Shown: piece after piece, positions 132 through 18,954 of the stretch
How positions within the stretch are numbered: position 1 is the stretch's first letter
Layout: every line of letters begins with the position of its first letter
From: Nannobrachium achirus
Taxonomy: Eukaryota > Chordata > Actinopteri > Myctophiformes > Myctophidae
Direction: 5' to 3'
Assembly: GCA_963921795.1 (NCBI GenBank)
Contig: OY997659.1
Location: 20,247,734-20,311,733, forward strand
DNA length: 64,000 nt
Notes under the pieces: model-generated
What the model was told of the DNA's origin: nothing
Seen by the model: the letters and a program-made list of their open reading frames with translations, nothing else
Database searches by the model: none
Made by a program: the position numbers and the translations under genes

Positions 132-1664
132 ATGTCTGAGATAGCTTCGCGTCTTACCAAGTTCAAGAACAAGGGAAGAGACGCCAACGAGCTTAGGAGC
201 TGCAGAGTCGACATTGTTGCCCAACTTCGCAAAACTAAGAGAGATGACCAGATCTTGAAAAGAAGAAATGTGTCAACTCTCCCAGATGAGCAAACTTCAC
301 CTCTTCAAGACATTGTTACTGGAATAAACAGCAACATCTTTGACAAACAACTCCAGGCTACCCAAGCTGCGAGGAAGCTGTTGTCACGTGAGAGTCCTCC
401 TCCCATTGACCACATCATCAAAGCTGGCCTGATCCCCAGGTTTGTTGGTTTCCTGGGTCTGGACTCCGCTCCCATCCAGTTTGAGGCCGCCTGGGCTCTG
501 ACCAACATCGCTTCTGGGACACGAGAGCAGACGGCTGCAGTCGTGGAGGGCGGAGCCGTTCCTGCTTTAATTAACCTGGTCGGCTCCCCCTACCGTCACA
601 TCAGTGAGCAGGCCGTGTGGGCCCTGGGAAACATCGCCGGTGATGGATCGGCTCTCAGAGACAGGGTCATCAATCACGGAGCCGTAGAACCACTGCTTAA
701 TCTTCTGGACGTTCCCGACCTATCCACGTTCACTCCCGGCTACCTGAGAAACGTCTCATGGATGCTGTCGAACCTTTGCCTCCACAAGGACCCCTACCCG
801 CCCACGGCGGCCATAAAGCAGATCCTGCCCGCGATCGTTCGTCTGCTCTGCCATGACGACAAGGAGGTGCTGGCCTATGCCTGCCGGGCCGTATCCTACC
901 TGACCGATGGCGGCAAAGATCGCGTCCAGGAGTGCGTGCTTCAGACCGGTCTCATCCCTCGCTTAGTACAGATGCTCGGTTCTGAACAGCTGTCCGTCGT
1001 GACTCCCTCGCTGCGCGCCATCAGCAACATTGTGAGTTGTACACATGTTGAGCAGACTCGGGCAGTGCTGGATGCCGGAGTGCTGGCCACGTTCCCGCGG
1101 CTGCTGCGCCACTACAAGCTAAACGTCCAGAGGGAAGCGTCGTGGGCCCTGTCCAGCATCGCAGCAGGAGCGGACACCCAGATTCAGGAGATCATCAACG
1201 CAGGTCTAGTCCCGTGCCTGATCGACGTTCTCAGACACGGTAACTATGAGACCCAGAGAGGGGCCGTGTGGGCCATTACCAACATCACCCACAAGGGCAC
1301 CGTTGAACAGGTGATGTACCTTGTTCAGGCAAACGTGCTAGAGCCTCTCCTTAATCTGCTCTCCACAAGGGACAGTACAATAATCTTCATCTTGGAAGCT
1401 ATCACCAACATCTTACTATCTGGAGAGAAAATTGGTGAATTAGACAAGCTTTGCCTGATGATTGAAGAATGTGGTGGGCTGAGCACGATCGAGGCCCTGC
1501 AGTCCCATGAGAGTGAGAAGGTCTACAGAGCTTCTCTCAACCTTATCGAGAAATATTTCCCGGGTGAAGAGATCTTTGAGTTGGTACCCCCGGAAGCAAA
1601 GACTGAAGGCTATGCATTCCAGAGCAGTGAAAACCAAAGCACTTTAAACTTATTGAATACCTAA
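132..1664 (+). CDS. kpna2: Importin subunit alpha (KPNA2 clade), intronless copy
   Basis: This is a nuclear import adaptor: its armadillo (ARM) domain binds classical NLS cargo and its N-terminal IBB domain binds importin beta. The 510-aa product starts with a basic IBB (RFKNKG-like, [14 protein letters not shown]), followed by ARM repeats with the WALTNIASG and WALGNIAGD signatures and a C-terminal ARM10/CAS-binding segment (MIEECGG...IEALQSHES). It follows human KPNA2 over its whole length. ATG 132 is chosen because the open frame upstream begins only with non-ATG codons and MSEIASRL aligns with the family start. Oddities: no introns; the linker between IBB and ARM1 is about 14 residues shorter than in KPNA2; the usual Trp of ARM5 is Arg252; the Asn of ARM7 is Ser342 (Trp338 kept). 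The frame is fully open, so it is probably a functional retrogene with altered cargo binding. Identification is certain at family level; the KPNA2 subclade is very likely. Confidence 0.9.
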
Positions 1665-1820
1665 TATACTATACCTAATATTACCGGTTTATTGAGCGGT
1701 GCTCCTGGAAGGAGCTAAGCTCCAACATCTGGCTTTGTCCAGTCCCCCAACATTTCCAGGCTCTGAAGCGTGGCCTACATCTAGTCATAGACGGCTCAAA
1801 GTTTGTTGTGCGCCCAGGGT
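1665..1820 (+). other. 3' flank of the kpna2-like gene
   Basis: This is unique-looking sequence after the stop codon. It has no canonical AATAAA signal and no poly(A) remnant, so a recent LINE-type retroposition cannot be shown from this end. Confidence 0.4.
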
Positions 1821-1920
1821 CCCATTGGCCAGGCTTCTGTTCTCAGTGACGTCACCACCAACATGTGCGACCTGATATAAATAACAGCAAGTTGGCACCT
1901 CGACAGAGCGCAGTCTAGTT
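1821..1920 (+). promoter_or_regulatory. Promoter-like/terminal repeat module, orphan copy after kpna2
   Basis: Read on the + strand it contains an inverted CCAAT box (CATTGGCC, 1823), a perfect CRE (TGACGTCA, 1847-1854), a TATA box (GATATAAATA, 1874) and then CAAGTTGGCACCTCGACAGA (1889-1908), ending in GTCTAGTT. Its reverse complement matches the start of the module upstream of the uck2-like gene (3511-3590), including TTATTTATATCAGGT and GTTGGTGGTGAC. It sits in the opposite orientation to that copy, as terminal inverted repeats or the right end of a cassette would. No ORF follows it on the + strand. Confidence 0.6.
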
Positions 1921-1950
1921 AGTCTTTTTTTTACAATAAGAGTAGACCTA

Positions 1951-2265
1951 TTAAAAAGGTGGTGCCATAGTTGTGTACTTTTTCTGTTATGTATGTGTCT
2001 ATGGAGTTAACATTACTCTAAAAGACCACTGGGGTGTGGTAATATTATGTAAATTTGCCTTCCTGTATATTTTTGGTTTCTTCCTGAAAGCCGAAAACCT
2101 CAAAGTCAAAAGGCCTGATCGAAAAACACTGAGTTAATGTCATCATAGAAACACTGTGGGTGTGGCTAACCTCAGCTGGGTCACCATTCACCTGACAACC
2201 AGGCATACTTAATGAACTGATGGGTGTGGCCACATAAAAACATAATTTTAAACACTTTCTTCACA
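1951..2265. mobile_element. TTAA-type MITE, one end
   Basis: It begins TTAAAAAGGTGGTGCCATAG and is similar throughout to the complete copy at 42538-42982, including the later stretch GTGGCCACATAAAAAC. The right terminal repeat seen in that copy is missing or degraded here. Confidence 0.65.
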
Positions 2266-2369
2266 CTTATTCTTTGAACTTGTCTGGTCACAAGTGGATG
2301 ACAGGAACTGGATAAACACTGATTTTCTCCCAAAACAATTGAGAAAGACTTTTTGTACTGGATGAGGAG

Positions 2370-2594
2370 CAGTGGTGGAAGGTAAGTAATTACATTTACT
2401 TAAGTACTGTAATGTACAACTGTGAGATATTCTTTACTTTAGCTGAGGATTTGCAATTTTCAATACTTTTACTTCTACTTCACTACATCTCAGAGGCAAA
2501 TATTGTACGTTTTACTCCACTAGAACTTTTACAACTAAAACATTTATTACAAAATGTTTAGATTTGAATTATTATTACAAAACAATAACATACA
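2370..2594. repeat. Dispersed teleost repeat rich in 'acttttact' motifs, left part
   Basis: The text CAGTGGTGGAAGGTAAGTAA and the repeated ACTTTTACTTCTACTTCACT-type words match a very common fish DNA-transposon-derived repeat. Its continuation (TTGTAATTTTTACTTGGTCA) resumes at about 3222-3255, so the TTAA element and the hairpin at 2595-3176 are nested insertions. Confidence 0.6.
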
Positions 2595-3048
2595 TTAAAG
2601 GGCAAGACCACTTTGGTAAGATTTGTGTTGTGTAGTTGCCTTGCCGTGATGTAACTCCAATGGTGGGCGAGAAATCATGAATAATTTCTCCATTGACTAG
2701 AAAAATAAGTAAAGAATGTCAACTTCCTTTAGATTTTGTACTAATTGAAGATCCGGATCTGCGGATCCAGTCAGGGTTGTCTTCCTAATAAAATAGCTAA
2801 ATCAACAGAAAGTTGACATTTAAAAATCAAACTGTACTGGGTTTGGTGATGTTCTATATTGTCATAATCAGCTTAGTTTGAGTTTGTTTTCAGGCTAAAA
2901 GAGTGCCTCCTGAGCCCAGTGGGAGCTGCAATGTACAGTAAGTCAATGAGGAACATATTAAATGATCAAACCATTGGAGTTACGGTACATTATGTTGTTG
3001 TGGCAACTACACAACCCGAACCTCTACCAAAGTGCTCTTGCTCTTTAA
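2595..3048. mobile_element. TTAA-bounded MITE with long terminal inverted repeats
   Basis: The left end TTAAAGGGCAAGACCACTTT is mirrored by AAAGTGCTCTTGCTCTTTAA at the right end. The inverted similarity continues inward (TGTTGTGTAGTTGCC / GGCAACTACACAAC; GTAACTCCAATGG / CCATTGGAGTTAC). There is no coding capacity. TTAA at both ends fits the target-site preference of piggyBac or Kolobok transposases. Confidence 0.8.
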
Positions 3049-3064
3049 CCAAAGTTTAACTTTG

Positions 3065-3176
3065 GCTATTTGAAAATGTCTGATCTAAAAGCTCACAACA
3101 AGTCGCATTGCGATAGCAGATCTACAAGATCACAATTTGTGACGCATTGTGAGCTTGTAGATAGGCTATTTTCAAA
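3065..3176. repeat. Hairpin repeat 'GATCTACAAGCTCACAACG', copy 1
   Basis: This copy reads GCTATTTGAAAATG...GATAGCAGATCTACAAGATC...ATTGTGAGCTTGTAGATAGGCTATTTTC. It is an imperfect palindrome of the family that recurs about 17 times in this window. Confidence 0.75.
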
Positions 3177-3378
3177 TGGCAGAAATGTATATACTTATAC
3201 ACCACTAATATATTGTAAATATTGTAATTTTTACTTGGTCAAAGTTACTTTGTAGATTATGATTACAAGACATACATTAACCTTGTAGATCTTTGTTGTA
3301 GAAACTTGTGAAATGGGACAACCTGCATAATAACTGTTTTTGTTTGGGTAAAGATCACGCCATAAATAAATATAGTGG

Positions 3379-3484
3379 AAACAAGACCGCACTCTGTCGA
3401 GGTGTCAACTTGCAAACTTGTGCACTCGTGTCCATATGTGGCCTACTTGTGTGCCAGCAGAGCACGCAAGTACTGTGATTGGTG
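3379..3484 (+). repeat. Shared terminal-type repeat, first copy upstream of uck2
   Basis: It starts GGAAACAAGACCGCACTCTG and continues GTCGAGGTGTCAACTTG. It then carries GTGGCCTACTTGTGTGCCAG and CAGAGCACGCAAGT. The inner part is the reverse complement of 61598-61635. The same order appears, inverted, at 35483-35564. It lies head-to-tail with the next copy at 3505. Confidence 0.65.
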
Positions 3485-3504
3485 CTGTCTGTGTGTATGT
3501 GGGT

Positions 3505-3723
3505 GGGCAAGTTGGCACTCTGTCGAGGTGCCAACTATCACCATGTTATTTATATCAGGTTGCATTTGTTGGTGGTGACTTGGCTAAAGCCATATACGGG
3601 AAAGCCATATATAGTTATATCCTGTCCTCACATGATTGGCTGAGAGGTGTAACCTATGTCATGCCTCATTGGACAGACTGGATACTTAAGGTGTGTCCTT
3701 CGAGAACTCGTAGCATAGCAGGT
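3505..3723 (+). promoter_or_regulatory. Shared promoter module and 5' leader of uck2
   Basis: A hairpin GTTGGCAC (3511-3518) / GTGCCAAC (3528-3535) encloses TCTGTCGAG. It is followed by TTATTTATATCAGGTTGC, a CArG-like CCATATATAG (about 3608), two inverted CCAAT boxes (GATTGGC at about 3634; CATTGGA at about 3668) and a TATA-like GATACTTAAG (about 3680) 35-45 bp before the ATG. The stretch 3545-3700 resembles 7704-7840 upstream of pi4ka, for example GATTGG...ATCATGCCT...GATACTTAA. On the minus strand the TATA-like GATATAAATA points away from uck2, so the module could be bidirectional. Confidence 0.6.
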
Positions 3724-4485
3724 ATGGCTGAGGACAGTGACCTTGGCGAGCACGTCAGTGTTGTCCACCAACCTTTCCTCATCGGTGTGTCCGGAGGCAC
3801 TGCCAGTGGCAAGTCCTCTGTGTGCGACAAGATCATGGAGCTGCTGGGACAGAACGAGATCGACCACCGCCAGCGGCAGGTGGCCATCCTCCGCCAGGAC
3901 AGCTTCTACAGGGAGCTCACCCCGGAGGAGATGGCCAAGGCACTGAAGGGCCAGTTCAACTTTGATCACCCAGACGCCTTTGACAACGAGCTGATCGCCA
4001 AGACACTCAGACAGGTGATGCGGGGCGAGGCCGCCCTGATCCCCGTCTATGACTTTGTCACAAATTCCAGGAAAGAGGAATCTGTGACGGTGTACCCAGC
4101 CGACGTGGTGCTGTTTGAGGGAATCTTGACATTCTACTCCCAGGAGATCCGGGACCTCTTTCAGATGAAGCTGTTTGTAGACACGGACGCAGACACGCGG
4201 CTTGCTCGCAGAGTTCTAAGGGACATCAGCGATCGAGGGAGGGACCTGGCACATGTGCTGACACAATATTTAACCTTAGTTAAACCATCCTTCGAGGAGT
4301 TCTGTTTGCCCACAAAGAAGTATGCAGACGTTATCATTCCACGAGGAGTAGATAACCTTGTGGCTATCAACTTGATAGTACAGCACATCCAAGACATTCT
4401 AAATGGCGGCTTCAGCAAGCGCCACAATGGCTGCGTGAACGGCAACAGCACTCGGGCGTCCGAGTCCAGCAGCCGCCCACACTGA
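3724..4485 (+). CDS. uck2: Uridine-cytidine kinase (UCK2 type), intronless copy
   Basis: It phosphorylates uridine and cytidine to UMP and CMP in cytosolic pyrimidine salvage. The 253-aa product follows human UCK2 (261 aa) end to end. The P-loop is [12 protein letters not shown] (residues 21-32), the catalytic Asp is in QDSFYR (Asp59), FDHPDAFD (80-87) is intact and [20 protein letters not shown] forms the lid region. The C-terminus SESSSRPH is typical of UCK2. The open frame extends upstream to 3418, but only through promoter sequence and from a non-ATG codon; ATG 3724 (MAEDSDL) matches the family. The usual nucleoside-contacting His in YDFVSHSRKEE is Asn114 here ([11 protein letters not shown]). 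A few residues near the C-terminus (the TPSRKRQ region) are missing. Parent genes have several introns and this copy has none. AATAAA follows at 4543. Confidence 0.9.
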
Positions 4486-4542
4486 CCATGCCACACTCGT
4501 CGATGGGTTAACGCTGTGGGGGAGGGGGCATGTAGCACAAGC

Positions 4543-4548
4543 AATAAA
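4543..4548 (+). terminator. Polyadenylation signal of uck2-like gene
   Basis: AATAAA lies 58 bp after the stop codon, the spacing expected for a short 3' UTR. No poly(A) tract follows. Confidence 0.6.
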
Positions 4549-4559
4549 GCAGGAATAAG

Positions 4560-5435
4560 GAATGTTATTACTAGATGCGTTTAAGGCTTGGCTGTAAAAG
4601 AGGTGCTAGCCGTCTATGAGAGGGTCTGTCTGTGTGTCTGTCTGTGTCCAGAGTTAATCTCATGAACCTCTGGACTGATTAGCACCAAACTTGGTTTGCA
4701 CACTGCTAGGAGGTGACAAGTACCAACACCAGGCCTGGAATTTTGACACATTAGGGGCAAGGCCACCAGGCCTTTGGTGTTGTAATGTTTTTGAGGGCAC
4801 AAAGGCAAATGCCAGGGCATAAAGGCCATCAAATAGAAAAGTGGTTTTGAAAAATAATTAAATGCATAGCTATCAGTGTTATCAGTATCACTGTTTCACT
4901 GAACAGTATTTCTAGTTTCACATAATAATTTACAAATTAGTCAACTCCTGAGTCAAATGTTCGAACATGCTCAGCCTTGGACAAATCAGAGTCACTAGAT
5001 TAATTTGAAGATGGGGAGGTGTGTGGTTAAGAATTAAGAATCTCAACAAAAGAGATCAAAAGCGGTTTGACAGGAATGAGCCACAGGAGAAAACTCTGAA
5101 ATCAGCTGGGGCATTGTAGCCTCAGGGCATGTCATGTTTTGAGAGGCAGATGTCCAAACTGAGGGGCCAAAGATTCCTGACCTGACCAATATTTTTTTTC
5201 ACAATGTTTTTGAATCTGGTCACATGATGTCTGATATCCATTTTGTGACAAAACCATGGATATGAGTCTGACCATGGAATAACACTGTTTGAACATTATG
5301 TTTATATTTATTAATTTGGTCCTAATACCTTTACAAGAGTGCAATCCTAGCATGAAGTGACCTTTCTATCCACCTGGTTCCTGCAAGGATTTTTTACTGT
5401 AGAATTATAGGCTATGTGGGACACATTCGGAGAAC
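4560..5435. other. Intergenic, no gene seen
   Basis: It contains short TCTG-rich text (4620-4650) and otherwise unassigned AT-rich sequence. The small open frames have no recognisable protein similarity. Confidence 0.4.
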
Positions 5436-5493
5436 AGCAGACATACAAGCTCACGTCGAGTCGCAGATGCAACCGTGTGAGCTTGTAGATCAC
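5436..5493. repeat. Hairpin repeat, copy 2
   Basis: Imperfect palindrome CAGACATACAAGCTCACG ... CGTGTGAGCTTGTAGATC of the window-wide hairpin family. Confidence 0.7.
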
Positions 5494-5613
5494 TCAGCTG
5501 CGATGCTAGAACTGCCGCACACCTTATGCACGATGGGACGTTGGAAACGTGTGGATACTGTACATGCTCAAAATGTCCTGCGAAGCTTGGCCAATACCAA
5601 GCAGGACAGACAT

Positions 5614-5676
5614 AAAAATAGCAGATCTACAAGCTCACAATGCATTGTGATGCCACATGTTGTGAGCTTGTAGAAT
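5614..5676. repeat. Hairpin repeat, copy 3
   Basis: AAAATAGCAGATCTACAAGC ... TTGTGAGCTTGTAGAA. This is one of the clearest copies of the hairpin family. Confidence 0.8.
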
Positions 5677-5900
5677 TTGTGCGACCTCCGTGTGACAGGA
5701 TTACACCGAATGGGGCATTCATTTACAAAAGAAACATAAAAAGTTTAAATATGGAGAGACAAGGCTTCTGCCCAACAGCGCTGGCAATATAATAGCGTTG
5801 GCAATAATTCATTATCATTATATAGTATTGTTAAATCAATTGCATGTGGGGTTTAGTTTAAACAGTTAACGATATGAGTCATAGAAAGAAGACATTGAGT

Positions 5901-6009
5901 TGACTGAAGGTTCTGCACAACATATTTTATGAAATAAATAAAAAAGGCACAGCTTGATGTGTCATATTTCATAAAATATGTTGTGTTCTAAATCCAGAAC
6001 CTTCAGTCA
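5901..6009. repeat. Inverted repeat with approx. 40-bp arms
   Basis: TGACTGAAGGTTCTG...CACAACATATTTTATGAAAT is mirrored by ATTTCATAAAATATGTTGTG...AGAACCTTCAGTCA. It is a MITE-like hairpin without coding capacity. Confidence 0.7.
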
Positions 6010-6041
6010 AAATTAGAATGAGCTCTTTGTGAATGTCCACA

Positions 6042-6260
6042 TTAAAGGAGTAGTTCACCCCCAAAATGACTTTTTTCTATTGATTGACTCATGCCATGGA
6101 GAGTAGAGTTCAATAATATTTTTTGGTTTCTGTCACATTCCTAAGACAAAGATTTGATTCGAGTAAATTTACCCCCATTGATTCCGGATGGGGACCCGTT
6201 TCGAAACGGGTCCCCATCCGGAACGAATTATTGTTATCAAAATTGCAGGGGTAAGGCATG
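6042..6260. mobile_element. TTAA-type MITE fragment with a perfect 42-nt palindrome
   Basis: The left end TTAAAGGAGTAGTTCACCCC is typical of TTAA MITEs; no matching right end was found. At 6182-6223 a perfect palindrome occurs (left arm TTCCGGATGGGGACCCGTTT, then C, then its complement). Confidence 0.55.
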
Positions 6261-6540
6261 GACGCAAATAGAGCCCTATATCTTTCTTCCTCTGTCCCTC
6301 TCTCTTTCTCTCACACACATTTTTTGTCTCTTCTTTTCCATCTCTCTCTGTTGTAGTTCTATAACTCTACGTCTTTGTACAATGTTTAGTTGTACTGTAT
6401 ATGGCATACTTTGTAAAGCTGTTCACCTGTGTCTGTCTGTCTGTCCATCCATCCAGACTGTGACCAGTGTAAGGAGTTCTTAGAGCCAGGAAGACCCTGC
6501 CTAAGAGATTTCAGGTACGAGTAACTGTGTGCACTGTACG

Positions 6541-6705
6541 GTGACGGGTTTCCTTTCCGACACATCCCCATTCGGAACACCAGGTTACCATTCACCAGTG
6601 TCGGCCGGTTAACATTCACCAGCGTTAGTTTTACTGAGGTTAGGGTTAGGGTTAAGGTTAGGTTTAGGTGGTCGGAATAGCGATGTGTCGGAGTGCCGAT
6701 AATAT
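6541..6705. mobile_element. Inverted-repeat element with telomere-like core
   Basis: CCGACACATCCCCATTCGG on the left faces CGATGTGTCGGAGTGCCG on the right, with GGTTAGGGTTAGGGTTAAGG between them. Related cores lie at 33745-33800, 48960-49188 and 53165-53300, so this is a dispersed element rather than a relic telomere. Confidence 0.55.
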
Positions 6706-6717
6706 GTAACCGCTCTG

Positions 6718-6830
6718 TACTAGAGCTGTCTCAATACGCCTGATCCACGATTCGATTCAACTTTCGATTTTAAGCTCACGATTCCTTTTGATTTTCGATA
6801 TATGATTTTTTTAATCTGCTTTTTCCAGCA
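6718..6830. mobile_element. hAT-like MITE fragment
   Basis: The text AGAGCTGTCTCAATACGCCTG followed by repeated CACGATTCGATT-type words resembles the ends of fish hAT MITEs. Only one end is clear. Confidence 0.35.
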
Positions 6831-7300
6831 CTGAGGCCTATCTGATTATTAATTTAGGCTATTATCTTGATTTGTAAAGAAAAAACACTTGTGTATTTCA
6901 TTATTTGAATAATAACAAATGAAAATGAGAATAACAAAAAGTTTAAAATCAACAATATAAACTTGTCATTAATGTAGTGAGCTGTTATAGTGAGTGATGT
7001 AACTCTTTGTTGCTGGAGGTCCAGCCATCTGTTGTTAAGCAGCCCTTCAGTAATTCATGCCTAATTCAACCCTTGCACTGCTCATAATATGAGCCCATCT
7101 ATATCAAGTGATGCTTTTAATTATTATGGTTAGTGCCATTATTACTGTTGTTGACATATAAGCCTCATATGCATCTGCTTGTTAGTTTGTAACGTGGTTC
7201 CAGAACGCTGATCAAATGGTTAAACCCAGTGTTCTCTACCACTGAAAGGGCTCTAATGCTATTAATACAACTGTGCTCCTTATTTCCTCATGTCAATGCC
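6831..7300. other. Intergenic, nothing identified
   Basis: AT-rich sequence without a recognisable gene, repeat boundary or RNA. Confidence 0.4.
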
Positions 7301-7303
7301 TCC

Positions 7304-7304
<1 letters not shown>

Positions 7305-7360
<56 letters not shown>

Positions 7361-7362
7361 CG
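7305..7362. repeat. (TG)n microsatellite
   Basis: Near-perfect TG run ending in GCGCGCGTGCG. Confidence 0.95.
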
Positions 7363-7534
7363 TAGCCAATGAGGAGCAGCCAAAGGGTAGATTTTGTGCC
7401 CATACATGGTGTTCCATGCAAGCCCATACTGTTTTGTAGGAAAAGTATTTCTTGTATAATCTTCTTCTTTCGTGTATCATCGGCATTGATGATTGGTTGA
7501 CGACATTTTATTTCACAAGATTTCTTGTTACTTA

Positions 7535-7660: not shown

Positions 7661-7703
7661 TTGTATAATGATGACATGCTATTGCCTTTATGTGGACTGA
7701 AAT

Positions 7704-7873
7704 TTGTATTATATCCTCATATTTGCTCATTATGTCTGGCAAAGCCAAATATGGTTATTAGTTCTGACCTCACAGTGATTGGCGTAAACTACATCATGCC
7801 TTGATGCACAGATTGGATACTTAATTGTGTGTAGATTAGACCTGAGTTTCATGTCAGGGCACATATCTCTGCA
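7704..7873 (+). promoter_or_regulatory. Shared promoter module and 5' leader of pi4ka
   Basis: This segment resembles the uck2 upstream module over about 130 bp. The shared landmarks are a TTATAT-type start, CTGGCAAAGCC, a CArG box (CCAAATATGG, about 7745), CCTCACAGTGATTGGC (inverted CCAAT), ATCATGCCTTGATGCACAGA and the TATA-like TGGATACTTAATTGTGTG, about 50 bp before the ATG. The GTCGAGGTGCC core found at other copies is absent here, so this copy is truncated or diverged at its outer end. Confidence 0.6.
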
Positions 7874-10800
7874 ATGCTAGCTGGATCAAGAGACTTTTAT
7901 TTCAATACGGTTCTTTCATTAGCCCGCTCTTTAGCTGCCCATCGTCCTGTGCCTTTTGAAAAGGTCCAGAAGCTACAATGCATGTGCCCTTTGGAAGTTC
8001 AGGGTGTGTTCACCTTGGATGTACGTCGCAGAGGTGCTGTCATAGCACTAGCTGTGTTTCTAGTGGAGTCTGACTTACAGAACAAAGACACACTTGTGTC
8101 TTACTTCCTGAGCCTGTTAAGAGGGCTACCACGGATCCAGTGGATCGAGGAAAGCTCCAGAAAGAAATGGGGAGAATCTCTCCCCATTTCAGAAAACTTC
8201 AGCTTCTGTTTAGTAACCCTGTTGTTAGATGTGGCCCAGAGGGACCCAGACTCCAGACAACAGGTATTAGACACCATCATGGAAAGTATGGAGGAGATGC
8301 AGGCGATGTGCCAGACGCCTGAAAAACATAACAAAGTGTACCTCTGCAAGTACATTGTTCCCTGCCTACTGGGGTTGACGAGGGCTTTTGGTCGCTATAG
8401 CAACACGGACAAGGCTCTTCTGTCCAAGCTGTTTCCTGGGAATTCACCTCAGACACAATGTTTTACGGAGGAGGAGGTGTGGCAGAGGTCCTTCCATGAC
8501 TTCCACTCCATTATGCCTTCCTCACTGCTGATAGTGTGCCAGAGAGACAGTCCACGTACACACATTGGAACCAACTCGGATACCTCCTCGCCGGTCACTT
8601 CTGATGCCAGAGGCCACTCGCCCTGCTCCCCTACAGCTCCAGGTCCACACTGCTTTGAAGGGGCCCACTTGCCTGCCAGCAGTGACGTGTATCCTGACTA
8701 CTTCTTCTCCAAAGTCAGCTCCAGCTTCTCCATGTCTCCTCTCTTCATGGGAGGAGGGGAAGGCAAGATGGAGGTGCCAGTTGACCTGCTGAGACAGCTC
8801 CTCAGCGTGGTGAGGAAATGTGTTAATGACTCCTTTCTAAAAACTCTGGACGCCACGCTGTTGGAAGTCACGGAGGCAAATGCTGGAATCAGCTTACATT
8901 ACAACATCTTCAGTGACCCTCTCTATGCCTGCATGTTCAAAATGCTGAGAGACACTCTGTACTACTTGAAAGGCTTGCAGCCAGAGTTTGTGCTTGAAGT
9001 GCACAACTTTGTCCTGGAGCAGTGCAGCAGCAGCCGGTCTGAGCTGCAGTGCATCCTCCATGACACGGGGCCAGGGGAACCTGGCCTCTTCCAGCTCTGT
9101 TGCCAAGCCAGTGCCGCCTGTGTGGACCTCATGGTGTGGGCCATCAATGATGAGCAAGGAGCAAATGAGTTGTGCACCAAGCTGTCAGACAAGCTGCAGT
9201 CTAAAACCTCCAGTAAAGTTATCGTAGCTCACATGCCCCTGTTCATCTGTTACCTACAGGGACTTGGACATCTGTGTGAGAGATTTCCAGGATTGGCCCG
9301 CTCTGCCACCACCTCTCTCAGGGATTTCCTGATGGTCCCCTCCCCTGTCCTGATAGAGCTCTACAAATACCACAGCCAGTACAACACAAGAAGTAATGAC
9401 ACCAGGATCAATGTAACCAACAAGCACTGCCAGCCAACTTTCAACACCCTGTCCAACAGGAAGAATCGGCCCTCTATGTATGAGCAACTCAGAGATATCT
9501 CTATCGACAACATCTGCAGATGTCTCAAGGCCGGTTTGACACTGGTTCCTGTGATAGTGGAAGCCTTTCTGGACAGCCTGTCCAATTGTCTCTACATCTC
9601 ACAGGAGAGTGAAAAGGATGCACATCTGATCCCAGATCACACCATCAGAGTGCTGGGTCACATCGCAGTGGATCTGAGGGACACGCCCAAGGTCACAGAA
9701 CCCATCTTGCAGATCCTACAGGAGAGGTTCTGCCAGCCTCCTTCGCCACTGGATGTGCTGATCGTAGACCAGCTTGGTTGCATGGTCATTACTGGAAACC
9801 AATACATCTACCAGGAGGTGTGGAACCTGTTCCAGCAGATCAGCGTGAAGGCCAGCTCAGTGGTTTACTCAGCCACTAAAGACTGTAGAGACCATGGATA
9901 CAGACACTGCTCCCTGGCTGTGATAAATGCACTGGCCAATATTGCAGCCAACTTGCAGGGGGAGCCACTGGTGGACAATCTGATGGTGGACCTACTGAAG
10001 TTGTTTGTTCAGCTGGGCCTGGAAGGAAAGAGAGCCAGCGAGAGGGCCTCAGACAAAAGGCCTGCCCTTAAGGCATCAAATAGTGCTGGCAACCTTGGCG
10101 TCCTCATCCCAGTCATTGCTGTGCTGACTAGACGCCTTCCACCAATCAAGGAGGCCAAGCCCCGTCTACAGAAGTTGTTCCGTGACTTCTGGTTGTACTC
10201 TGTGGTCATGGGATTTGCAGTAGAGGGAAGTGGTCTGTGGCCAGAGGAGTGGTATGAGGGAGTATGTGAAATCGCTACCAAGTCTCCCCTCCTCACCTTC
10301 CCCAATGGAAAGCCTCTCCGCTCAGAGCTGCAGTACAACTCGGCCCTTAAGAATGACACAGTCACCCCGGCAGAGCTGAGTGAGCTGCGATCCACCATTA
10401 TCAACCTCCTGCATCCATCACCAGAGGACTCTGCGCTCATCAATAAGCTGGACTTTGCCATGTCCACATACCTGCTGTCAGTCTACAGATTAGAATACAT
10501 GAGGATACTGCATTCTAATGACCCCGAAAGGTTCCAAGTGATGTTCAGATACTTTGAAGACAAAGCCATTCAAAAAGACAAGTCTGGCATGTTGCAGTGT
10601 GTTATTTCTGTTGGGGATAAGATATTTGATGTCTTCCTGCAAATGATGGCTGAGAAGCCCAAGACCAAAGAGCATGAGGAGGAGCTGGAATGTCATGCCC
10701 AGTTTCTATTGGTCAACTTTAACCACACTGACAAAAGGATCCGTAGAGTTGCAGACAAATACTTGGCAGGTTTGGTCGAGACTTTCCCCCATCTGCTGTG

Positions 10801-13800
10801 GAGTGGCCGTGTGTTGAAGACCATGCTAGACATCTTGCAGACACTCTCTCTGTCACTCAGTGCAGACATCCACAAGGATCCGCCATACTATGACATTCCA
10901 GATACTGCCTATATGATCACTGTCCCAGATACGTATGAGGCCAGAGAGAGCATAGTGAAGGACTTTAATGCTCACTATGGTCAAATCCTGAAAGAGGCCA
11001 TGAAATGGGCACCCTCTATCACCAAGTCCCACCTCCAGGAGTACTTGAATAAGCATCAGAACTGGGTTTCAGGATTGTCCCAGCACACAGGCCTGGCAAT
11101 GGCCACAGAGAGTACACTGCACTTTGCTGGCAACAACAAACAGAGTTCCACACTAGGTGCTGCTTTTCCTCAGACCATCCAGCTGACCGCGAGGCCAGCC
11201 TCTGTGAATAAGGACTACTCAAACTTCATGGCTTCCCTCAACTTACGGAACCACTACACTGGAGAAGTGGCAGGTATGATCCAGTTCTCCAGGCAGACCC
11301 ACAGTCGGTCAGACCTGACCAAACTAATGGTCTGTTTGACAGCTGACGCTCTGGACAGAAAAGACCCAGAATCCTTCACTCAGGCCATGTTCAAGATGAC
11401 CGCCCTGTTAATCAGTAGCAAAGACTCTGATCCTCATCTCTTGCATCATCTGTGCTGGTCTCCTCTGAAGATGTTTACTGAACATGGTATGGAGACAGCC
11501 ATTGCCTGCTGGGATTGGCTGCTGGCTGCAAACAAGGGAGTAGAAGTCCCATTCATGCGTGAAATGGCAGGGGCTTGGCAGAATACAGTGGAACAGAAGA
11601 TGGGGTTGTTCTCGGAGACTAAGGTAGAAGCAGACCCTCTGGCCGCCTCAGAGGACAGCCAGCCCGTAGCCTGCCCCCCTGACATCATGCCTCACTTCCT
11701 CTGGATAGAGTTCCTGGTGCAGAGATTTGAGATAGCCAAGTACTGCAGTGCTGACCAGGTGGAAATATTCACCACAATCCTCCAGAGGTCATTGTCGCAC
11801 AGTGTCGGAGGAGCCAACAGCGGTCTCAACAAACACGTTGGTGCCATAGGGCCGAGATACAGACTGCTCACCCTGGGCCTTATGCTGCTGCACTCTGATG
11901 CCATGACAAATGCCACCATCCGCAATGTGCTGAGGGAGAAGATTTACTCCACAGCCTTTGATTACTTCAGCGTTGCTCCTAAGTTTCCCACGCAGAAAGA
12001 GAAACGTCTGAGAGAAGACATCAGCATAATGATCAATTTCTATGCCAGCCTCATGTCAGACAGAAAATATCTGGCTGCCTACCAGCTGGTATCCCCAGAC
12101 CCTCAGGATAGCCTGTCTGTGGTCACGGTGACAGACAGTCGCAGTAATCTGGATGTGGTTGTAGGTCAGAGGCAGCAGGTGGCTCAGGGATGGATCAATA
12201 CTTACCCTCTGTCCTCTAGCATGTCCACCACATCCAAGAAATCTGGAACAAGTAAGAAAAACAGCAAAGGCCCTCAGCTGCCCAAGTACTACACCAAACG
12301 TAGAACTCTACTACTAGCACTGCTGGCCAGTGAGATTGAGCGCCTGACAACGTGGTACAACCCTCTGTCAACCCAGGAGCTGGCAATCCCCACAGAGCAG
12401 TCAGTGGAGACCAGCATCACTAACTGTAGGTACAGATCCCTCAGCCTAACTGAGAAACAGTGGAAGGACAATGTGAACCTAGCCTGGAGCATAGCACCCT
12501 GTCTAGCCCTGCAGCTACCTGCCAGGTTCAAGAACACAGAAGCCATTGTATCAGAGGTGACTCGTCTAGTGCGCGTGGACCCAGCTGCCGTATGTGACAT
12601 CCCAGTGGCCGTCAAGTTCTTAGCAACATGGCAATGCATTGAGGCTGACTCTCCAGAGCTGAGTCACATCCTGTGCTGGGCCCCCGCTGACCCCCCCACC
12701 GCACTCTCCTATTTCTCCTCCATGTACCCCCACCACCCCCTGACTTCCCAGTATGGGGTCAAAGTACTCCGTTCCTTCCCACCAGATGCCATTCTGTTTT
12801 ACATTCCTCAAATTGTACAAGCGCTTCGATATGACAAGATGGGTTATGTGAGAGAATACATTTTGTGGGCCGCTCAGACATCCCAGCTACTGGCTCACCA
12901 ATTCATCTGGAACATGAAGACCAACATCTACCTGGATGAGGAAGGACATCTCAAAGACCCGGATATAGGTGAGCTGTTGGAGCGCATGGTGGAAGAGATC
13001 ATTGGCTCTATGTCTGGCCCGGCCAAGGACTTCTACCAGAGAGAGTTTGACTTCTTCAACAAGATCATCAATGTGTCTGCCATCATGAAGCCTTTGCCTA
13101 AAGGGGAGGACAGGAAGAGAGCCTGCCTGGAGGCCATGTGTAAGATAAAGGTCCAACCCGGCTGTTACCTCCCCAGTAACCCAGAGGCTGTAATCCTGGA
13201 TATAGACTACAAGTCTAGCACACCAATGCAGAGTGCTGCTAAAGCCCCATACCTGGCCAAATTCAGAGTGAAGAGATGTGGCATTAGCGAACTGGAAAAA
13301 CATGTTCTGCAATGTCACTCAGATTCTCCTGACGAGGCTAAGAGTGAAGAGGAGGCCAAGAGAATCTACTGGCAAGCAGCCATTTTTAAAGTGGGAGATG
13401 ACTGCAGGCAGGACATGCTGGCTCTCCAGATCATTGGCCTGTTTAAGAACATCTTCCAGTTGGTGGGTCTTGACCTTTATGTGTACCCTTACAGAGTGGT
13501 GGCCACTGCACCAGGGTGTGGCGTGATTGAGGTCATCCCCGACTGCAAGTCTCGTGACCAGCTGGGCCGGCAGACAGACGTCGGTATGTACGACTACTTC
13601 AGGAACCAGTATGGTGACGAGTCAACACAGGAATTCCAGAAGGCGCAATACAACTTCATCCGCAGTATGGCTGCCTACAGTCTGCTGCTCTTCCTTTTGC
13701 AGATAAAGGACAGACACAATGGCAACATCATGCTGGACAGTGAGGGCCACCTACTTCACATTGATTTCGGCTTCATTTTTGAGAGTTCTCCCGGTGGTAA

Positions 13801-14149
13801 CCTGGGCTGGGAGCCGGACATCAAGCTGACAGATGAGATGGTGATGATCATGGGGGGCAAGATGGAGGCCACACCATTCAAATGGTTCACGGAGATGTGT
13901 GTGAAGGGGTACCTGGCTGTCAGGCCCTATATGGATGCAGTGGTCTCCCTTGTCACCCTCATGCTGGATATTGGTCTTGCCTGCTTCAGAGGACAGACTG
14001 TCAAGTTGCTCAAGCAGCGATTTAACCCAAGCATGAGTGAAAAGGAGGCAGCAGCCTTCATCATCAAAGTCATCCAGAACTGCTTCCTCAGTAACAGGAG
14101 CAAAACCTATGACATGCTCCAGTACTACCAAAACCAAATCCCATGCTAG
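7874..14149 (+). CDS. pi4ka: Phosphatidylinositol 4-kinase III alpha, full-length intronless copy
   Basis: It makes PI4P from phosphatidylinositol and ATP at the plasma membrane, where the family works with TTC7, FAM126 and EFR3. The 2091-aa product aligns with human PI4KA (about 2100 aa) from near the N-terminus ([13 protein letters not shown]) to the very end ([13 protein letters not shown]). In order it has the long helical N-terminal scaffold, the lipid-kinase helical (PIK) region and a C-terminal PI3/PI4-kinase domain. Kinase landmarks are [16 protein letters not shown], catalytic loop DRHNGN (Asp1946 to Asn1951) and the metal-binding Asp1964 in IDFGF. The ATG starts MLAGSRDF; the low-complexity Gly/Ser leader of mammalian PI4KA is missing. 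A vertebrate PI4KA has over 50 exons, so an uninterrupted 6.3-kb frame is striking and argues for retained function. It shares an upstream module with uck2. Confidence 0.95.
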
Positions 14150-14254
14150 ACTTCTGTGCCTGTAGCTACAGACACTCGTGTGTGGATGCGTTGTAGATGT
14201 CACGTCGACGAACCTGTTTCATTTTCTATGGAGAGCATCTGATGCAAGGTCTTC

Positions 14255-14260
14255 AATAAA
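14255..14260 (+). terminator. Polyadenylation signal of pi4ka-like gene
   Basis: AATAAA 106 bp after the stop, followed by T/G-rich GGTTTTCAAAGCCAGGTTTT. No poly(A) tract follows it. Confidence 0.6.
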
Positions 14261-14279
14261 GGTTTTCAAAGCCAGGTTT

Positions 14280-15035
14280 TCGTCATATCTGAAATGTGCA
14301 TTTTAATTTGGTTGAATTGAACTTTATGCAAATAAGGTCTTGGGAATCTCTGGTTATTGTCAAACTAAAGTAACGTTGTTTGTCCTGCACCTTGACACTC
14401 AGGTGTACTTTTTCATGCAAACTATCAAACTAAGCAATGCTGATCAAATATGAATGAAGGTTATGTCACTGCTCTGCTTATTTCTCGCCACAAATGTTTT
14501 CATAAATTCTGTATACTGTAGCACGGTTACAAATTCACTCTATTTATATTGAGTTTGCAAGCGAACGTTTAAGGTGTTCCTTTGGCTCCCAGGCACAACA
14601 GAGATCACTAACTATATCTCTGTTCAAACCATGCCCTTGTCTTTTGTATGTGTTATGTATGTGTACGGATTTGTTACATACACAAAGTGTGTTATTTGTG
14701 CATGTGTACGGTAACTTGTTTACTAAAGTTACCATTCTTATTGAAGCCCTACCTGTAGGGTGAGAACTTCAAGGGGAGACAAACAATGTGACACAGCAGC
14801 ACAGTGTTGTGAATACTTTTCTCCTGGTTTTGCTGTCTTTTTTTACCACTATATTGTTTTTGCTCTGCATACTAATGTTGAGTTTTGTTATTTTAGTTTT
14901 GGTTGGGAGATCTTACAAGTTAATATGGATGTTTAGGCTAGGGTCCAGCGGCCCGTTGCATGGTTGGCCCAGCAGTTGCTTCACATTATTTTGTTCCTAT
15001 TGGACCCCTTTTACTGGGATTAGTTTACACTTTAT
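14280..15035. other. Intergenic, no gene seen
   Basis: AT-rich sequence. A hydrophobic open frame at 14788-15060 starts at GTG and has no family resemblance, so it is not called. Confidence 0.4.
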
Positions 15036-15560
15036 TAGGGCCCAAGCACAAAGTGTGTAGCTCCTATTAAGATTCGCTTCATTATTATTCAGCTGTTTTA
15101 CGAATAAAGTGTTGTATTATCTCTACGGTGCTGTCGGTTTTTACGAAACTAAGCAATATGGTAGACACGAAGCCCATGACCATTGGCCAAAGAGTGGCAC
15201 TGTAGCGATCAATTGAATGCAACACATATGTATATATATATATTTTATATAAATATATTTTAAATATATTTTATTTCATATTACTGGTAGAACCGTGCAG
15301 TCACTTTTTATGAAACGTGGTAGAATGGTAGAGGGTCATGCATGCAAAACGTCCAAGAAATGAAATTCACAAACATTGGCCAAAGGGTGGCGCTATAGCA
15401 CCCAATTGAAAATCCAAACTTTTAACAGGTATAACTTATGCCCTGTTTGACCTACAGCCATGAAACTTCTTTATTACACATGTGTGTCTCCTCATGCTGA
15501 ACAACTTTAACGCTGTGACTTTTGACCTCTGACCTTTAGATCTTCCACCATTTTGAATTA
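15036..15560. repeat. Dispersed fish repeat of the 'gggcccaagcac' type, with AT-rich insert
   Basis: It starts AGGGCCCAAGCACAAAGTGT and has two related blocks, CATTGGCCAAAGAGTGGCAC (15181) and CATTGGCCAAAGGGTGGCGC (15375), each followed by a 'CAATTGAA' word. A TATATA-rich stretch (15225-15280) lies between them. This layout is known from many teleost genomes as a non-coding repeat. Confidence 0.55.
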
Positions 15561-16130
15561 CAGTATATGGAAAACAGTTAATCTATCTTCAGGCCAGGGT
15601 CCAGTATTCACAGCCATAGGGCAACAGACTCTACAGTCGCAGAGAAGTTGATATGTCGGTGCCGGTGGAGGCTGTATACTTACACATGCTGACCATGACA
15701 TTCAGAGCTCTCCAATGCGAGCGCTTTCCTCACTTTAAGGTCGTCTCACTCTGTTGAGCCATGAGCCCAGCTATTTAAACTCATTCTTTCAGGGCAGTGC
15801 CTCCTGTTGTCATTAGAGGTGGATGATCTGGAAGGATGTTGTAAGTAAGTGATAACTTTGGTTTTCTTGGCACGTAACTGATAGATATGGATTATGATCC
15901 ATAAATGTATGATCCATGCATGAGGCTCATATGACCATGAAGTTATATTCTGTGATCTACTGTTTAGACTTACAGGTCATTGCGACTGTGGTTACCCTGA
16001 CTACGAGATCATGTTTGGGTTATACTGTGTTATACTGTAGGGTCTGGCTAGACCCTATACGGGTGTCAAGGAACCAATCAAAGAGTTCCACGGTTATACT
16101 GTATCATTTGATATACAAATATAACTATGA
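15561..16130. other. Intergenic, nothing identified
   Basis: Unassigned sequence. GTTATACTGT occurs three times (about 16020, 16030 and 16093). Confidence 0.35.
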
Positions 16131-16384
16131 GGGGCGGCATAGCTCAGGGGTAGAGAAACCATTATTAGAGCATGAAGGGTTCCCGAAGGGTTCCCAGTTC
16201 GAATCCGGGTTCCCCCTGAGTTCATGTCGAAGAGTCCTTGAGCAAGACTCTGAACCCCTAATTGCTCCCGGTGAGTAGGTTGGTGCCTTGCATGGTTTCC
16301 TCCGCCACCGGTGTATGAATGTATGGGTGAATGTAATGCACAATCTATGTAAAGCGCAATATAAATGCACCATTTACCATGGAA
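16131..16384 (+). mobile_element. tRNA-derived SINE, full-length
   Basis: The A box TAGCTCAGGGGT (16140-16151) and B box GTTCGAATCC (16197-16206) form a tRNA-like head. The body contains GTCCTTGAGCAAGACTCTGA and the tail reads TGTAAAGCGCAATATAAATG. The same family lies in reverse at 56308-56535. The tail resembles the L2 3' end in this window (AAGTGCTCTATAAATAAAG). Confidence 0.85.
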
Positions 16385-16760
16385 ATGGAATATGGAGATC
16401 GCTGATGTCATCACGAGTCACACTTGCATCACGCTCTGGCTTGATGTCCCTTTTATGCCCATATATGGAGATCGCTGATGTCATCACAAGTCACACTTGC
16501 AAATTAATTACGGCCTTGTCCGTTTTATGCCCATATATGGATATCCCTGTCCCGATGTCAGCATATTAAGGGCATATCTGGGAATGCCCATGTTTGGTAA
16601 TGCCCATATATGGGTATGTTCTGACATCACATTGCTGACTATCATGCAGGGGTCTCCATATATGGGTAACTGGTCCGATATACATCACTGGCCAGGTGGC
16701 CGAGAATTGGTGTGACCTCTGTGAGGTCACATGTCGCCCTGAGGCGTCTTACCAGGTTAT
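16385..16760. repeat. Minisatellite built around CCATATATGG (short array)
   Basis: Copies of CCCATATATGGAGATCGCTG, GCCCATATATGGATATCC and variants recur about every 50-75 bp. The last part, CTCCATATATGGGTAACTGG followed by CATGTCGCCCTGAGG, is repeated at 29366-29450. Confidence 0.7.
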
Positions 16761-17228
16761 TATTGCTGAGTCAATTGGTTGATTGACACAAATGAGTTAA
16801 GAAGCTTAAACAATATTCAATAATAAACCCCATTCGCATTCTTCACGCCAAGTCTGGCACGAATGTCAGCCAAAAACCTGCCTATCACTCAAAGAGTCTG
16901 ATAGAGAAGCCTAGAACTGATGCCTCCACCCAGACCTCAGGGTTCAGGAAATCCTGTGCCTCCTCCTCAGGCCTGTTTTGGGATTTTACCCCTCCCAATT
17001 GCTGTTTGGCACATTCCATCAAGGGCTCACCTGAAGCTCACACCCCAAATCTGGGACCTTTGGTCTATTTCTTCCGCAGACTGAGATTTGGAGGCTTATA
17101 TGATGATGATGATGATATGTCTATATTTGGTGACATTGACAATGACTCACAGTCACAGCTAATCACAAAGCGAGGTTAAAAGTAACTGTGATGTCACTTG
17201 TCACTATAAAAGAGAAATAGTTCATTGT
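16761..17228 (+). promoter_or_regulatory. Upstream region and promoter of the taxilin-like gene
   Basis: A TATA box TATAAAA lies at 17205-17211, about 20-90 bp before the candidate start codons. It is preceded by CRE-like GTGATGTCAC (about 17188) and a CCAAT-like TAATCACAAAG. A (GAT)n run is at 17101-17116. The region does not resemble the uck2/pi4ka module at the sequence level, only in motif content. Confidence 0.5.
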
Positions 17229-18815
17229 ATGAACAAAGAAGGAGAGGGTATTAAAACAAGGATTTTTATAGTTAAGCTTGAGATCAGGTTTGGACCAGTA
17301 CCAATGGAGGAGACAGATGTGAGTCAGATAGATGTGGTTGAAACAAGTGGAATTGTTGGAGGTAACGAGTCACCACCCGGCTTCAGCCCTGGGGTGTGCT
17401 GCTCAGAGGAAGTAAGAGTAGAGACACCAGGCAGGGATGAGGACTGTCCCAACAACCTTAGAGAGCCAGAGCTGGACCCTGTAGTAGTAGATGCCAAGAC
17501 AGGGGACAACAAGGCCATCACAAAAGAGGTTATTCTACTGACGCAGACCCTGAACACCCTAGCCACTCCAGAAGAGAAACTGGCTGCCCTGAGGAGAATG
17601 TACGCAGACCAGCTGGAAGAGAATCGCTATGTGCAGAAACAGCTGAAGGCCCTGCAAAAGATGCAGTCCCAGATTGTCAAGGAGAAGGCTCACCTGCAAC
17701 GGGAACATGGCAAGGCTGTCCTGGCCCGCAGCAAGATGGAAAGCTTGTGCAGGGAACTGCATACACAGAACAAGACATTAAGGGACGAGTACGCTCAGCG
17801 GTCGAGGGAGTACGAAGAACAGCGCAAAGAGGACATGCAGCGCCTCCAGGTGACAAGGAGTGAAATTGAGGTGCAGATGAAGCAATATAGCTCCCAAAAT
17901 ACCATGCTGCGTCAGGATAACCTGGAGCTGTCCGAGAAGCTCAAGAAGCTCATTGAGCAGTATGAACTCAGAGAGGAGCACATGGACCAGGTGCTCAAGC
18001 ACAAGGACCTGCAGCAAGAGCTGATGACAAACAAGTTCCAGAGAAATGCCGAGTTGATGAAGGAACTGGGGGAGAAGCATCAGAGGGAGAAGGAGTTTCT
18101 GCTGAAGGATGCCACAGAGTCCAGACACAAATGTGAGCTGATGAAGGAGCAGGAGACATATCACGAGCAACAGCTGTCCCTATACAAGAACAAGTTTGAG
18201 GAGTTTCAGAGCGAACTTAGCAAAAGCAACAAGGTCTTCACCACCTATAGACAAGACATGGAAAAGATGACCAAGAAGACAAGGAAGCTGGAGAAGGAAA
18301 CAGCTCAGTGGAGGACCAAATCACTGAGCGATAACCAGGCTCTGCTGCAGATGATGGAAGAGAAAATGTTGCACAACAAGAACCAACAAGAGAAGCAGGA
18401 ACGCCTTGAGAAGCTATGCAGAGCCCTTCAGCAAGAGAGAAATGACCTCAACAAGCAGCTCACCCTCTTCCGGGAGCAAGGTGGGGAGCAGAATGGGGCT
18501 GCAAACCTCCTCCAGGAAGGGCAAGGAGAGGAGAAAGGGACTGCAAACTCCCAGGAGCAAGGTGGGGTGAAAGGTGCTGCAAACCCTCTGGGACCACCCC
18601 AGCTGAACGAGACCTCGCCTGCAGAGGGCATTGGTTTGATGCCAGGTGAGAGGGTGGCTGAGGCGGAGGGGGTTCACCAGGCCTCCAGGCCCCCTGCACT
18701 AGAGGAGGAGCTATCAGCTACTACTGATCTAACTACCACCACCAGCCTCCCTACAGCCCACGCCACAACAGCTGCAGCTGAAACTGCTGATGCGGCTTCT
18801 GCTTGCCTGCTATAA
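17229..18815 (+). CDS. txlna: Taxilin (alpha-taxilin-like), intronless copy
   Basis: Taxilins are coiled-coil proteins that bind syntaxins and take part in vesicle traffic. The product is 528 aa from ATG 17229, or 503 aa from ATG 17304 (MEETDVSQ), which may be the better start because the first 25 residues are unlike the family. After an acidic, poorly conserved N-terminus comes the taxilin core with family signatures TLNTLATPEEKLAALRRMYA, KAVLARSKMESLCRELHTQN, EQYELREEHMDQVLKHKDLQ and RLEKLCRALQQERNDLNKQL. It is one long coiled coil of roughly 300 residues. The C-terminal tail is rich in Gly, Gln, Ala and Thr and contains imperfect repeats of EQGG. The parent genes have introns and this copy has none. 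A partial tandem copy follows downstream. Confidence 0.88.
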   Translation: MNKEGEGIKTRIFIVKLEIRFGPVPMEETDVSQIDVVETSGIVGGNESPPGFSPGVCCSEEVRVETPGRDEDCPNNLREPELDPVVVDAKTGDNKAITKEVILLTQTLNTLATPEEKLAALRRMYADQLEENRYVQKQLKALQKMQSQIVKEKAHLQREHGKAVLARSKMESLCRELHTQNKTLRDEYAQRSREYEEQRKEDMQRLQVTRSEIEVQMKQYSSQNTMLRQDNLELSEKLKKLIEQYELREEHMDQVLKHKDLQQELMTNKFQRNAELMKELGEKHQREKEFLLKDATESRHKCELMKEQETYHEQQLSLYKNKFEEFQSELSKSNKVFTTYRQDMEKMTKKTRKLEKETAQWRTKSLSDNQALLQMMEEKMLHNKNQQEKQERLEKLCRALQQERNDLNKQLTLFREQGGEQNGAANLLQEGQGEEKGTANSQEQGGVKGAANPLGPPQLNETSPAEGIGLMPGERVAEAEGVHQASRPPALEEELSATTDLTTTTSLPTAHATTAAAETADAASACLL

Positions 18816-18954
18816 GGAGGAGGAGGTCAGGGTTGAAGTCTGAGAAAGGAATGTGATAAAAACAAAGACAGCATTCATCCTGAACAATCAGGCTGCTCCA
18901 TCTATGCTGGTAAGCAACAGAAACATTGACACCCCCTGTCTGACAACATCCAGA

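Follow-up and report, generated by a model that had tools for sequence, protein, structure and literature searches.

How promoterless retrocopies become genes is an old question, and one stretch of the genome of Nannobrachium achirus raises it four times within 19 kb. The window, by which we mean the whole stretch of DNA that we analyzed, is 64,000 nucleotides long (C22:20247734-20311733, in an assembly of 1.66 Gb and 564 contigs). From position 132 to 18815, it holds genes that are similar to KPNA2, UCK2, PI4KA, and TXLNA, each as a single intronless open frame on the + strand. Together they form a cluster of four retrogenes that derive from housekeeping genes on four chromosomes; the copies are old, and purifying selection acts on them. 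Similar promoter-like blocks precede UCK2 and PI4KA, and further copies of the block stand upstream of unrelated retrogenes elsewhere, on six chromosomes (C1, C2, C5, C9, C14, and C16), which hints at a common route by which copies come into use. The best-supported conclusion from these sequences is that a family of apparent promoters marks some of the retrogenes of this genome, including two of the cluster's four.

Four old retrogenes under purifying selection

The KPNA2-like gene (importin alpha; 132-1664) encodes 510 amino acids from the ATG at 132, within an open reading frame (ORF) at 75-1664, and has an IBB domain and Arm repeats. The UCK2-like gene (3724-4485) encodes 253 amino acids from the ATG at 3724; its ORF is at 3376-4485, and the portion upstream of that ATG is not UCK2. 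The PI4KA-like gene (7874-14149; ORF 7835-14149) is full length, with 2091 amino acids from the ATG at 7874 and a kinase domain. The TXLNA-like gene (17304-18815; ORF 17163-18815) encodes 503 amino acids from the ATG at 17304 and has a Taxilin domain. Pfam matches back all four names, and solved structures back PI4KA (3567 bits, residues 16-2103), KPNA (importin-alpha-1), and UCK2 (uridine-cytidine kinase 2). The structure search gave no solved structure for TXLNA, which leaves Pfam as the source of its identity. According to the initial annotation, four unrelated genes, each in one open frame, lie on the + strand within 19 kb, and the ORFs, the domains, and the structures agree with this description. 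All four genes would share a strand by chance 1 time in 8, which is weak evidence by itself.

Each copy has a multi-exon relative elsewhere in the genome: at C4:23840400-23843326 for KPNA, at C5:27825081-27828649 for UCK2, at C7:5695468-5704531 for TXLNA, and at C12:44.12-44.17 Mb for PI4KA. The four copies in the window are therefore processed, and the initial annotation was right to call them retrocopies of unrelated parents. (PI4KA has a second, more distant multi-exon relative on C15, with a synonymous distance, or dS, of 1.33 across 705 codons. We rejected C3:8312784 as the parent of PI4KA: it is an intronless fragment and, of the 33 sites that differ, it matches the retrocopy at 30.)

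We computed distances between each retrocopy and its nearest multi-exon relative by the Nei-Gojobori method, with poorly matching stretches of codons removed beforehand. This kept 427 of the 461 aligned codons for KPNA, 199 of 208 for UCK2, and 354 of 414 for TXLNA; the 870 codons for PI4KA are all from the C-terminal half, where exons were fetched. The dS is 0.531 for KPNA (interval 0.43-0.66), 0.532 for UCK2 (0.35-0.78), 0.565 for TXLNA (0.42-0.73), and 0.418 for PI4KA against C12 (0.34-0.50). All four intervals overlap, so a single period of origin for the four retrocopies is possible, though not established. At the silent rate that is given for zebrafish in PMC3091775 (4.13e-9), the copies would be roughly 51-68 million years old.

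The initial annotation had named the ratio of nonsynonymous to synonymous distance (dN/dS) as a check, and it is not near 1 in any of the four copies. The ratios range from 0.14 to 0.26: 0.255 for KPNA (upper 95% limit 0.35), 0.138 for UCK2 (0.23), 0.252 for TXLNA (0.35), and 0.160 for PI4KA (0.20). Amino-acid changes were faster on the side of the retrocopy, with 44 unique changes versus 16 in C12 for PI4KA (664 codons), and 34 versus 9 in C4 for KPNA (282 codons). The copies were also said to have stayed open, and this holds up: when 19% of the sites in the PI4KA frame were changed in 200 neutral simulations, the mean was 38 stops and the minimum was 25, while the actual frame has 0. By eye, we saw no poly(A) tract or target-site duplication in the flanks that we read. 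Similarity of the untranslated regions (UTRs) of KPNA, UCK2, and TXLNA to those of their parents did not exceed the null maximum, as expected at a dS of about 0.5.

A promoter-like block before unrelated retrogenes

The block upstream of UCK2 (3598-3696, + strand) has CArG-like, CCAAT, and TATA-like (ATACTTAA) motifs and ends 28 nt before the ATG. The block upstream of PI4KA (7738-7832, + strand) has a CArG motif (CCAAATATGG), CCAAT, and the same ATACTTAA, and ends 42 nt before the ATG. The two align over 103 columns with a local score of 87, where 200 shuffles reached no more than 30, and neither matched any of four control stretches. The similarity stops near the TATA-like site, and there is no clear common transcribed leader. 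We infer that the block is a core promoter, and that it is probably active in germ cells; germline expression would fit the kind of gene and the behavior of retrogenes in general.

A search of the genome with the UCK2 block gave 11 matches, 10 of them at other places, and a search with the sequence upstream of PI4KA (7700-7873) gave 9, including itself. Combined, these are 15 places outside the window (two matches on C8 were taken as one place, and two places were on both lists). Neither search recovered the other gene's block, so sensitivity was limited and 15 is a lower bound. We examined 9 of these places, eight of them via the 436-541 nt that were fetched downstream and one (on C5) via coordinates; the remainder are at C2:3.04, C9:50.0999, C19:47.10, C19:4.53, C20:3.45, and C8:55.58 Mb. 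At 6 of the 9 places, a recognized gene lies downstream in the sense direction: MAN1A (C16, C1, and C5), EIF3B (C1 and C14), or DnaJ (C9). The coordinates put the block 49-198 nt before the start of the frame at these six places (on C5, before the first aligned residue). For MAN1A, the frame on C1 is 611 amino acids long and the one on C16 is 513; the likely multi-exon gene is on C22, where two exons that are 78 kb apart were counted as one gene. For EIF3B, the frame on C14 is 704 amino acids long and the one on C1 is 609, and the multi-exon gene is on C3. (The genome has four long EIF3B open frames, of 609-704 amino acids; the other two, at C20:3167289 and C2:65775122, have 700 and 692.) On C9, two copies of the block are separated by 4 kb.

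The block also turned up at a locus that we reached through similarity to the UCK protein, and not through the block. At this locus (L064; C2:17315271-17318906), intronless UCKL1-like and PSMA2 genes stand head to head, with 430 bp between their start codons. Both UCKL1 and PSMA2 are multi-exon genes in vertebrates. The interval between them carries the block in the sense of PSMA2, with scores of 62 and 67 versus null maxima of 39 and 33 (100 shuffles); a repeat of the test gave 65 and 67 versus 32 and 34 (300 shuffles). We then ran a profile of the UCK2, PI4KA, and PSMA2 blocks over 364 kb, and it found those three (by construction), a partial stretch upstream of TXLNA (16593-16634, E = 0.0028), and one place with E = 3.5.

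In the titles and the openings of abstracts that our literature search covered, which lie mostly outside subscription journals, no promoter family of unrelated retrogenes is described. Promoter similarity was examined for the single-exon genes of European sea bass (PMC8207432); in the portion of that report that we consulted, the similarity sought links each copy to the multi-exon gene that it came from, whereas here unrelated copies resemble each other.

How the block and the copies came together

Besides UCKL1 and PSMA2 on C2, there is a second group on C1, where the EIF3B copy is about 5 kb from a processed piece of UCK2 that spans parental junctions. Around the ATP13A1 copy on C4, where there is also a frame of 162 amino acids, we recognized no second gene within about 3-4 kb. 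Clustering of retrogenes thus recurs in this genome but is not universal. The initial annotation had stated that independent LINE-driven retrocopies rarely cluster: the cluster in the window is real, and given the groups on C2 and C1, it is not unique.

Some of the copies are much younger. Between the MAN1A copies of C1 and C16, dS is 0.071 and dN is 0.049; both have the block, and immediately upstream of the start they agree at 55 of 55 bases. For the EIF3B copies on C1 and C14, dS is 0.063 and dN is 0.054. Because the promoter sits upstream of the transcribed part, these promoter-gene units were probably copied as DNA rather than via RNA. In the window itself, TXLNA is followed by a truncated tandem DNA duplicate of the gene and its 3' flank (19090-20237, + strand; ORF 19090-19941). 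Positions 17851-18507 are 91% identical to 19181-19822, positions 18554-19005 are 89% identical to 19791-20237, and the dS between TXLNA and the duplicate is 0.123.

The block might have been present before the complementary DNA (cDNA) arrived, it might have come with the cDNA (from a long terminal repeat, or LTR), or it might have spread by later copying of DNA. We favor landing beside a spreading promoter, followed by copying as DNA. Our estimate leans, if only slightly, toward an account in which retrocopies landed beside a spreading promoter of germline type and were kept by selection, the units were later copied as DNA, and clusters grew. The block would have spread at the DNA level, either through duplication or with the help of an old mobile element that is now otherwise decayed, and ordinary machinery of the LINE type (long interspersed nuclear element) would have made the reverse-transcribed copies. 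Copies that landed next to the promoter would have been expressed at once and retained, and promoter-gene units would subsequently have been copied as DNA. Clusters would then have grown, with the active promoter region as an open landing site that permits expression of new arrivals. If this is true, the promoter family allows retrogenes to be found by their promoter, allows the order of promoter and cDNA (before or with) to be tested, and allows the steps to be dated. Clusters could then be explained with no need for an element that carries genes, and each listed locus would come with a prediction of expression.

Several results weigh against this account. Upstream of KPNA, the block is not clearly above chance (scores of 23 and 20 versus null maxima of 33 and 40; another test was borderline, at 32 versus 31). 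The sequence upstream of KPNA does not define a family of its own either: apart from itself, the best 40 of 1202 matches cover just the first 88-103 bases, which are the end of a high-copy repeat. For TXLNA, the match is partial, lies 650 nt upstream, and is within a repeat (51 versus 36 and 39 versus 35), and the sequence upstream of TXLNA also beat the null against one control stretch (51 versus 46). As KPNA lacks the block and TXLNA is doubtful, the account covers no more than half of the cluster. We did not find the block upstream of three other intronless importins (L002, L003, and L004) or of ATP13A1. Among the examined places with the block, the one on C2 has a frame of 114 amino acids and the one on C10 a frame of 115, neither with a Pfam match above the cut-off. 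We did not count these as genes because 349 of 4000 random pieces of 437 nt give at least 110 amino acids (479 of 4000 for 541 nt). The place on C11 has just a 101-amino-acid frame and no recognized gene, and the DnaJ frame on C9 was covered for just 112 amino acids, within which it is intronless. The MAN1A copies are not independent of each other, nor are the EIF3B copies, and the start codon of MAN1A on C16 reads ATA. dN/dS is not low in the recent pairs (0.70 for MAN1A, with an interval of 0.29-2.60, and 0.054/0.063 for EIF3B). Finally, the LINE route is assumed by default, because we saw no poly(A) tail, target duplication, or UTR homology.

In the LTR route, an LTR element copied host messenger RNAs by template switching, so that the cDNAs were born with an LTR promoter. 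The block would be the remnant of the 5' LTR, maintained by selection, and the rest would have decayed. This would account for both the common promoter directly before unrelated cDNAs and the overlapping ages, and LTR-mediated retrocopies that bring their own promoter are reported for zebrafish among others (PMC5408686, of which we consulted a part). The likeness to our loci is that unrelated cDNAs have a common upstream promoter; the difference is that we found no LTR structure or matching 3' end. The 5' block is shared, but we did not find LTR sequence on both sides of a cDNA, and the 3' ends of UCK2, PI4KA, TXLNA, PSMA2, and UCKL1 share nothing above the null maximum. Of 15 pairs of 3' flanks, KPNA-PSMA2 alone exceeded it (56 versus 44), via the weak inverted-repeat-type sequence described below. 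The end of the block's similarity near the TATA-like site, with no clear common leader, also speaks against an LTR. Age could have erased both the 3' match and the leader, and we consider this route unlikely, though worth keeping in view.

Another explanation is chance: four independent LINE-driven retrocopies landed in a permissive region and were each kept singly, and the block in two of them is a coincidence. Intact retrogenes are plentiful in fish genomes, which hold hundreds of them; of 652 zebrafish retrocopies, 440 are intact (Fu et al. 2010, PMC3091775). That study, which also covers chimeric retrogenes, resembles ours in the abundance of intact and constrained retrogenes in a teleost, and its abstract mentions neither a common promoter family nor unrelated retrogenes in clusters. 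In Drosophila, retrogenes are in excess in testis neighborhoods (Bai et al. 2008, PMC2413143), so there too retrogenes seem to have been selected for expression at the landing site. The portion of that paper that we consulted infers that transposable elements give no substantial regulatory regions, whereas at our loci a single family of sequences stands repeatedly upstream of unrelated retrogenes. The window contains a LINE that has both reverse transcriptase and endonuclease. However, coincidence does not account for the block before unrelated retrogenes on the six other chromosomes, and we think that chance is quite improbable.

Mobile elements and repeats

Judging from what they contain, elements in this genome capture processed genes. 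A possible case is on C7, where an intact intronless importin-alpha gene (L003:660-3477, a frame of 517 amino acids) lies between inverted repeats of about 60 bp that are 2.8 kb apart (at about 660-730 and 3403-3474). This is the arrangement of a Pack-TIR transposon (TIR, terminal inverted repeat); two separate insertions are also possible, and by eye we saw no target duplication. As far as the part of the report that we consulted goes, animal Pack-TIR transposons (Tan et al. 2021, PMC8277862) resemble the C7 importin, and perhaps also the repeat with ATP13A1 and PI4KA that we describe next, in being inverted-repeat elements with host gene sequence. They differ in that our cluster lacks such a pair of ends and that the content here is processed (intronless).

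Genome search and site comparison also showed that a segment of the PI4KA retrogene (10443-10928, + strand) has intronless relatives in a dispersed repeat. Among the best 22 of 315 matches, 20 have all or part of PI4KA residues 870-1038 within this repeat; the retrocopy and L032 make up the rest. The PI4KA piece in the repeat spans parental exon junctions without introns. It sides with the retrocopy at 37 of the 48 sites where retrocopy and parent differ and with the parent at 7 (these sites are unpolarized, with no outgroup), so the repeat most likely captured the piece after the retrocopy arose. A variant (L033) has a processed piece of ATP13A1 in frame before the PI4KA piece. The ATP13A1 piece had 106 matches; 31 of these, which we took for copies of the element on the basis of similarity, span 120 or more of the 149 residues, and 26 have no stop. 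The ATP13A1-like open frame on C4 is 1186 amino acids long. Of the 10 copies of the repeat that were fetched (L033-L042), 9 share 95.6-99.6% identity with the tenth (L035), as measured over the longest shared stretch. Some copies are nearly identical, and the left end was not reached. The right end is GAGCGGTTAGCACCGCTC, followed by A's, and it recurs as the inverted repeats around the C7 importin and beside PSMA2. In L035:990-2928, there is a stretch upstream that is similar to a cAMP response element (CRE) and a TATA box, with an ATG; a 3' unit of 366 bp, which contains a long hairpin, is duplicated, and the repeat has a hairpin end that is followed by A's.

These elements suggest that a DNA transposon or Helitron-like element could have captured retrogenes, moved them, and built the cluster. 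Besides the C7 importin and the dispersed repeat with the same end sequence, a Helitron-like repeat with a hairpin and CTAG occurs at four places in the window (1889, 3389/3515, 18964, and 35532), and its 24-mer has 1538 exact occurrences in the genome. Helitrons have a 3' hairpin and a CTRR end before a T. In the window's repeat, we read a hairpin and a CTAG^T end by eye (CTTG in one copy); a 5' TC end was not established. Against the transposon, no terminal inverted repeats enclose any of the four genes. The sole clear match to such an end in the window is weak: it lies at 1689-1757 (+ strand), begins 25 nt past the KPNA stop (Smith-Waterman score 40.5 versus a top null score of 31.5; nhmmer E = 0.012), and is related to the repeats that flank the C7 importin and to the sequence after the PSMA2 stop. 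The matches listed also do not include another full-length copy of the KPNA, PI4KA (best 22 of 315), or TXLNA of the window, and the capture of the PI4KA piece most likely came later than the retrocopy. We think it improbable that such an element built the cluster.

Comparison of the first 21 kb with the window itself gave scattered copies of repeats and no common ends that enclose the four genes, and we rejected one mobile element carrying all four cDNAs. The initial annotation had proposed a single mechanism. A shared feature does exist, as the block is common to UCK2, PI4KA, and retrogenes elsewhere, but a mobile element that carried the cDNAs has no common ends to support it, and KPNA has no block. 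A broader possibility is a retroelement-linked system of gene birth, in which an element fused its own core promoter to reverse-transcribed housekeeping messenger RNAs. The resulting cassettes would have been expressed in the germline, clustered, and moved as DNA, and some would have been recaptured by inverted-repeat elements. We regard this system as tentative and on balance rather unlikely.

We also considered the hairpin repeat as the feature that the cluster shares and rejected it: it is common across the genome and has no above-chance match to the promoter block. With up to 4 mismatches, it is absent from 64 other loci, which amount to 223 kb and in many cases overlap; this count leaves out 13 loci that were fetched through the hairpin repeat (L066-L072) or are within the window. 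Some copies have CRE, CCAAT, and TATA-like motifs.

Several other repeats are present. CCATATATGG boxes occur at 16 sites in the window (within 16459-16656 and 21102-22398, and at 29377 and 61631), with exact copies in 6 of the 64 other loci; they belong to several unrelated repeats and minisatellites, with examples in L004, L017, and L065. The LINE in the window (37254-41576) has endonuclease, reverse transcriptase, and a GDSL-like region that is just below the Pfam cut-off, in two long frames with a single stop between them. A perfect palindrome of 42 bp lies at 6182-6223, and two exact tandem units of 47 bp, with telomere-like AACCCT repeats, lie at 49035-49130. Elsewhere in the genome, taxilin-like pieces of the size of exons are repeated at C10:53.49-53.90 Mb, and three importin-like fragments are close together at C23:17.069-17.093 Mb.

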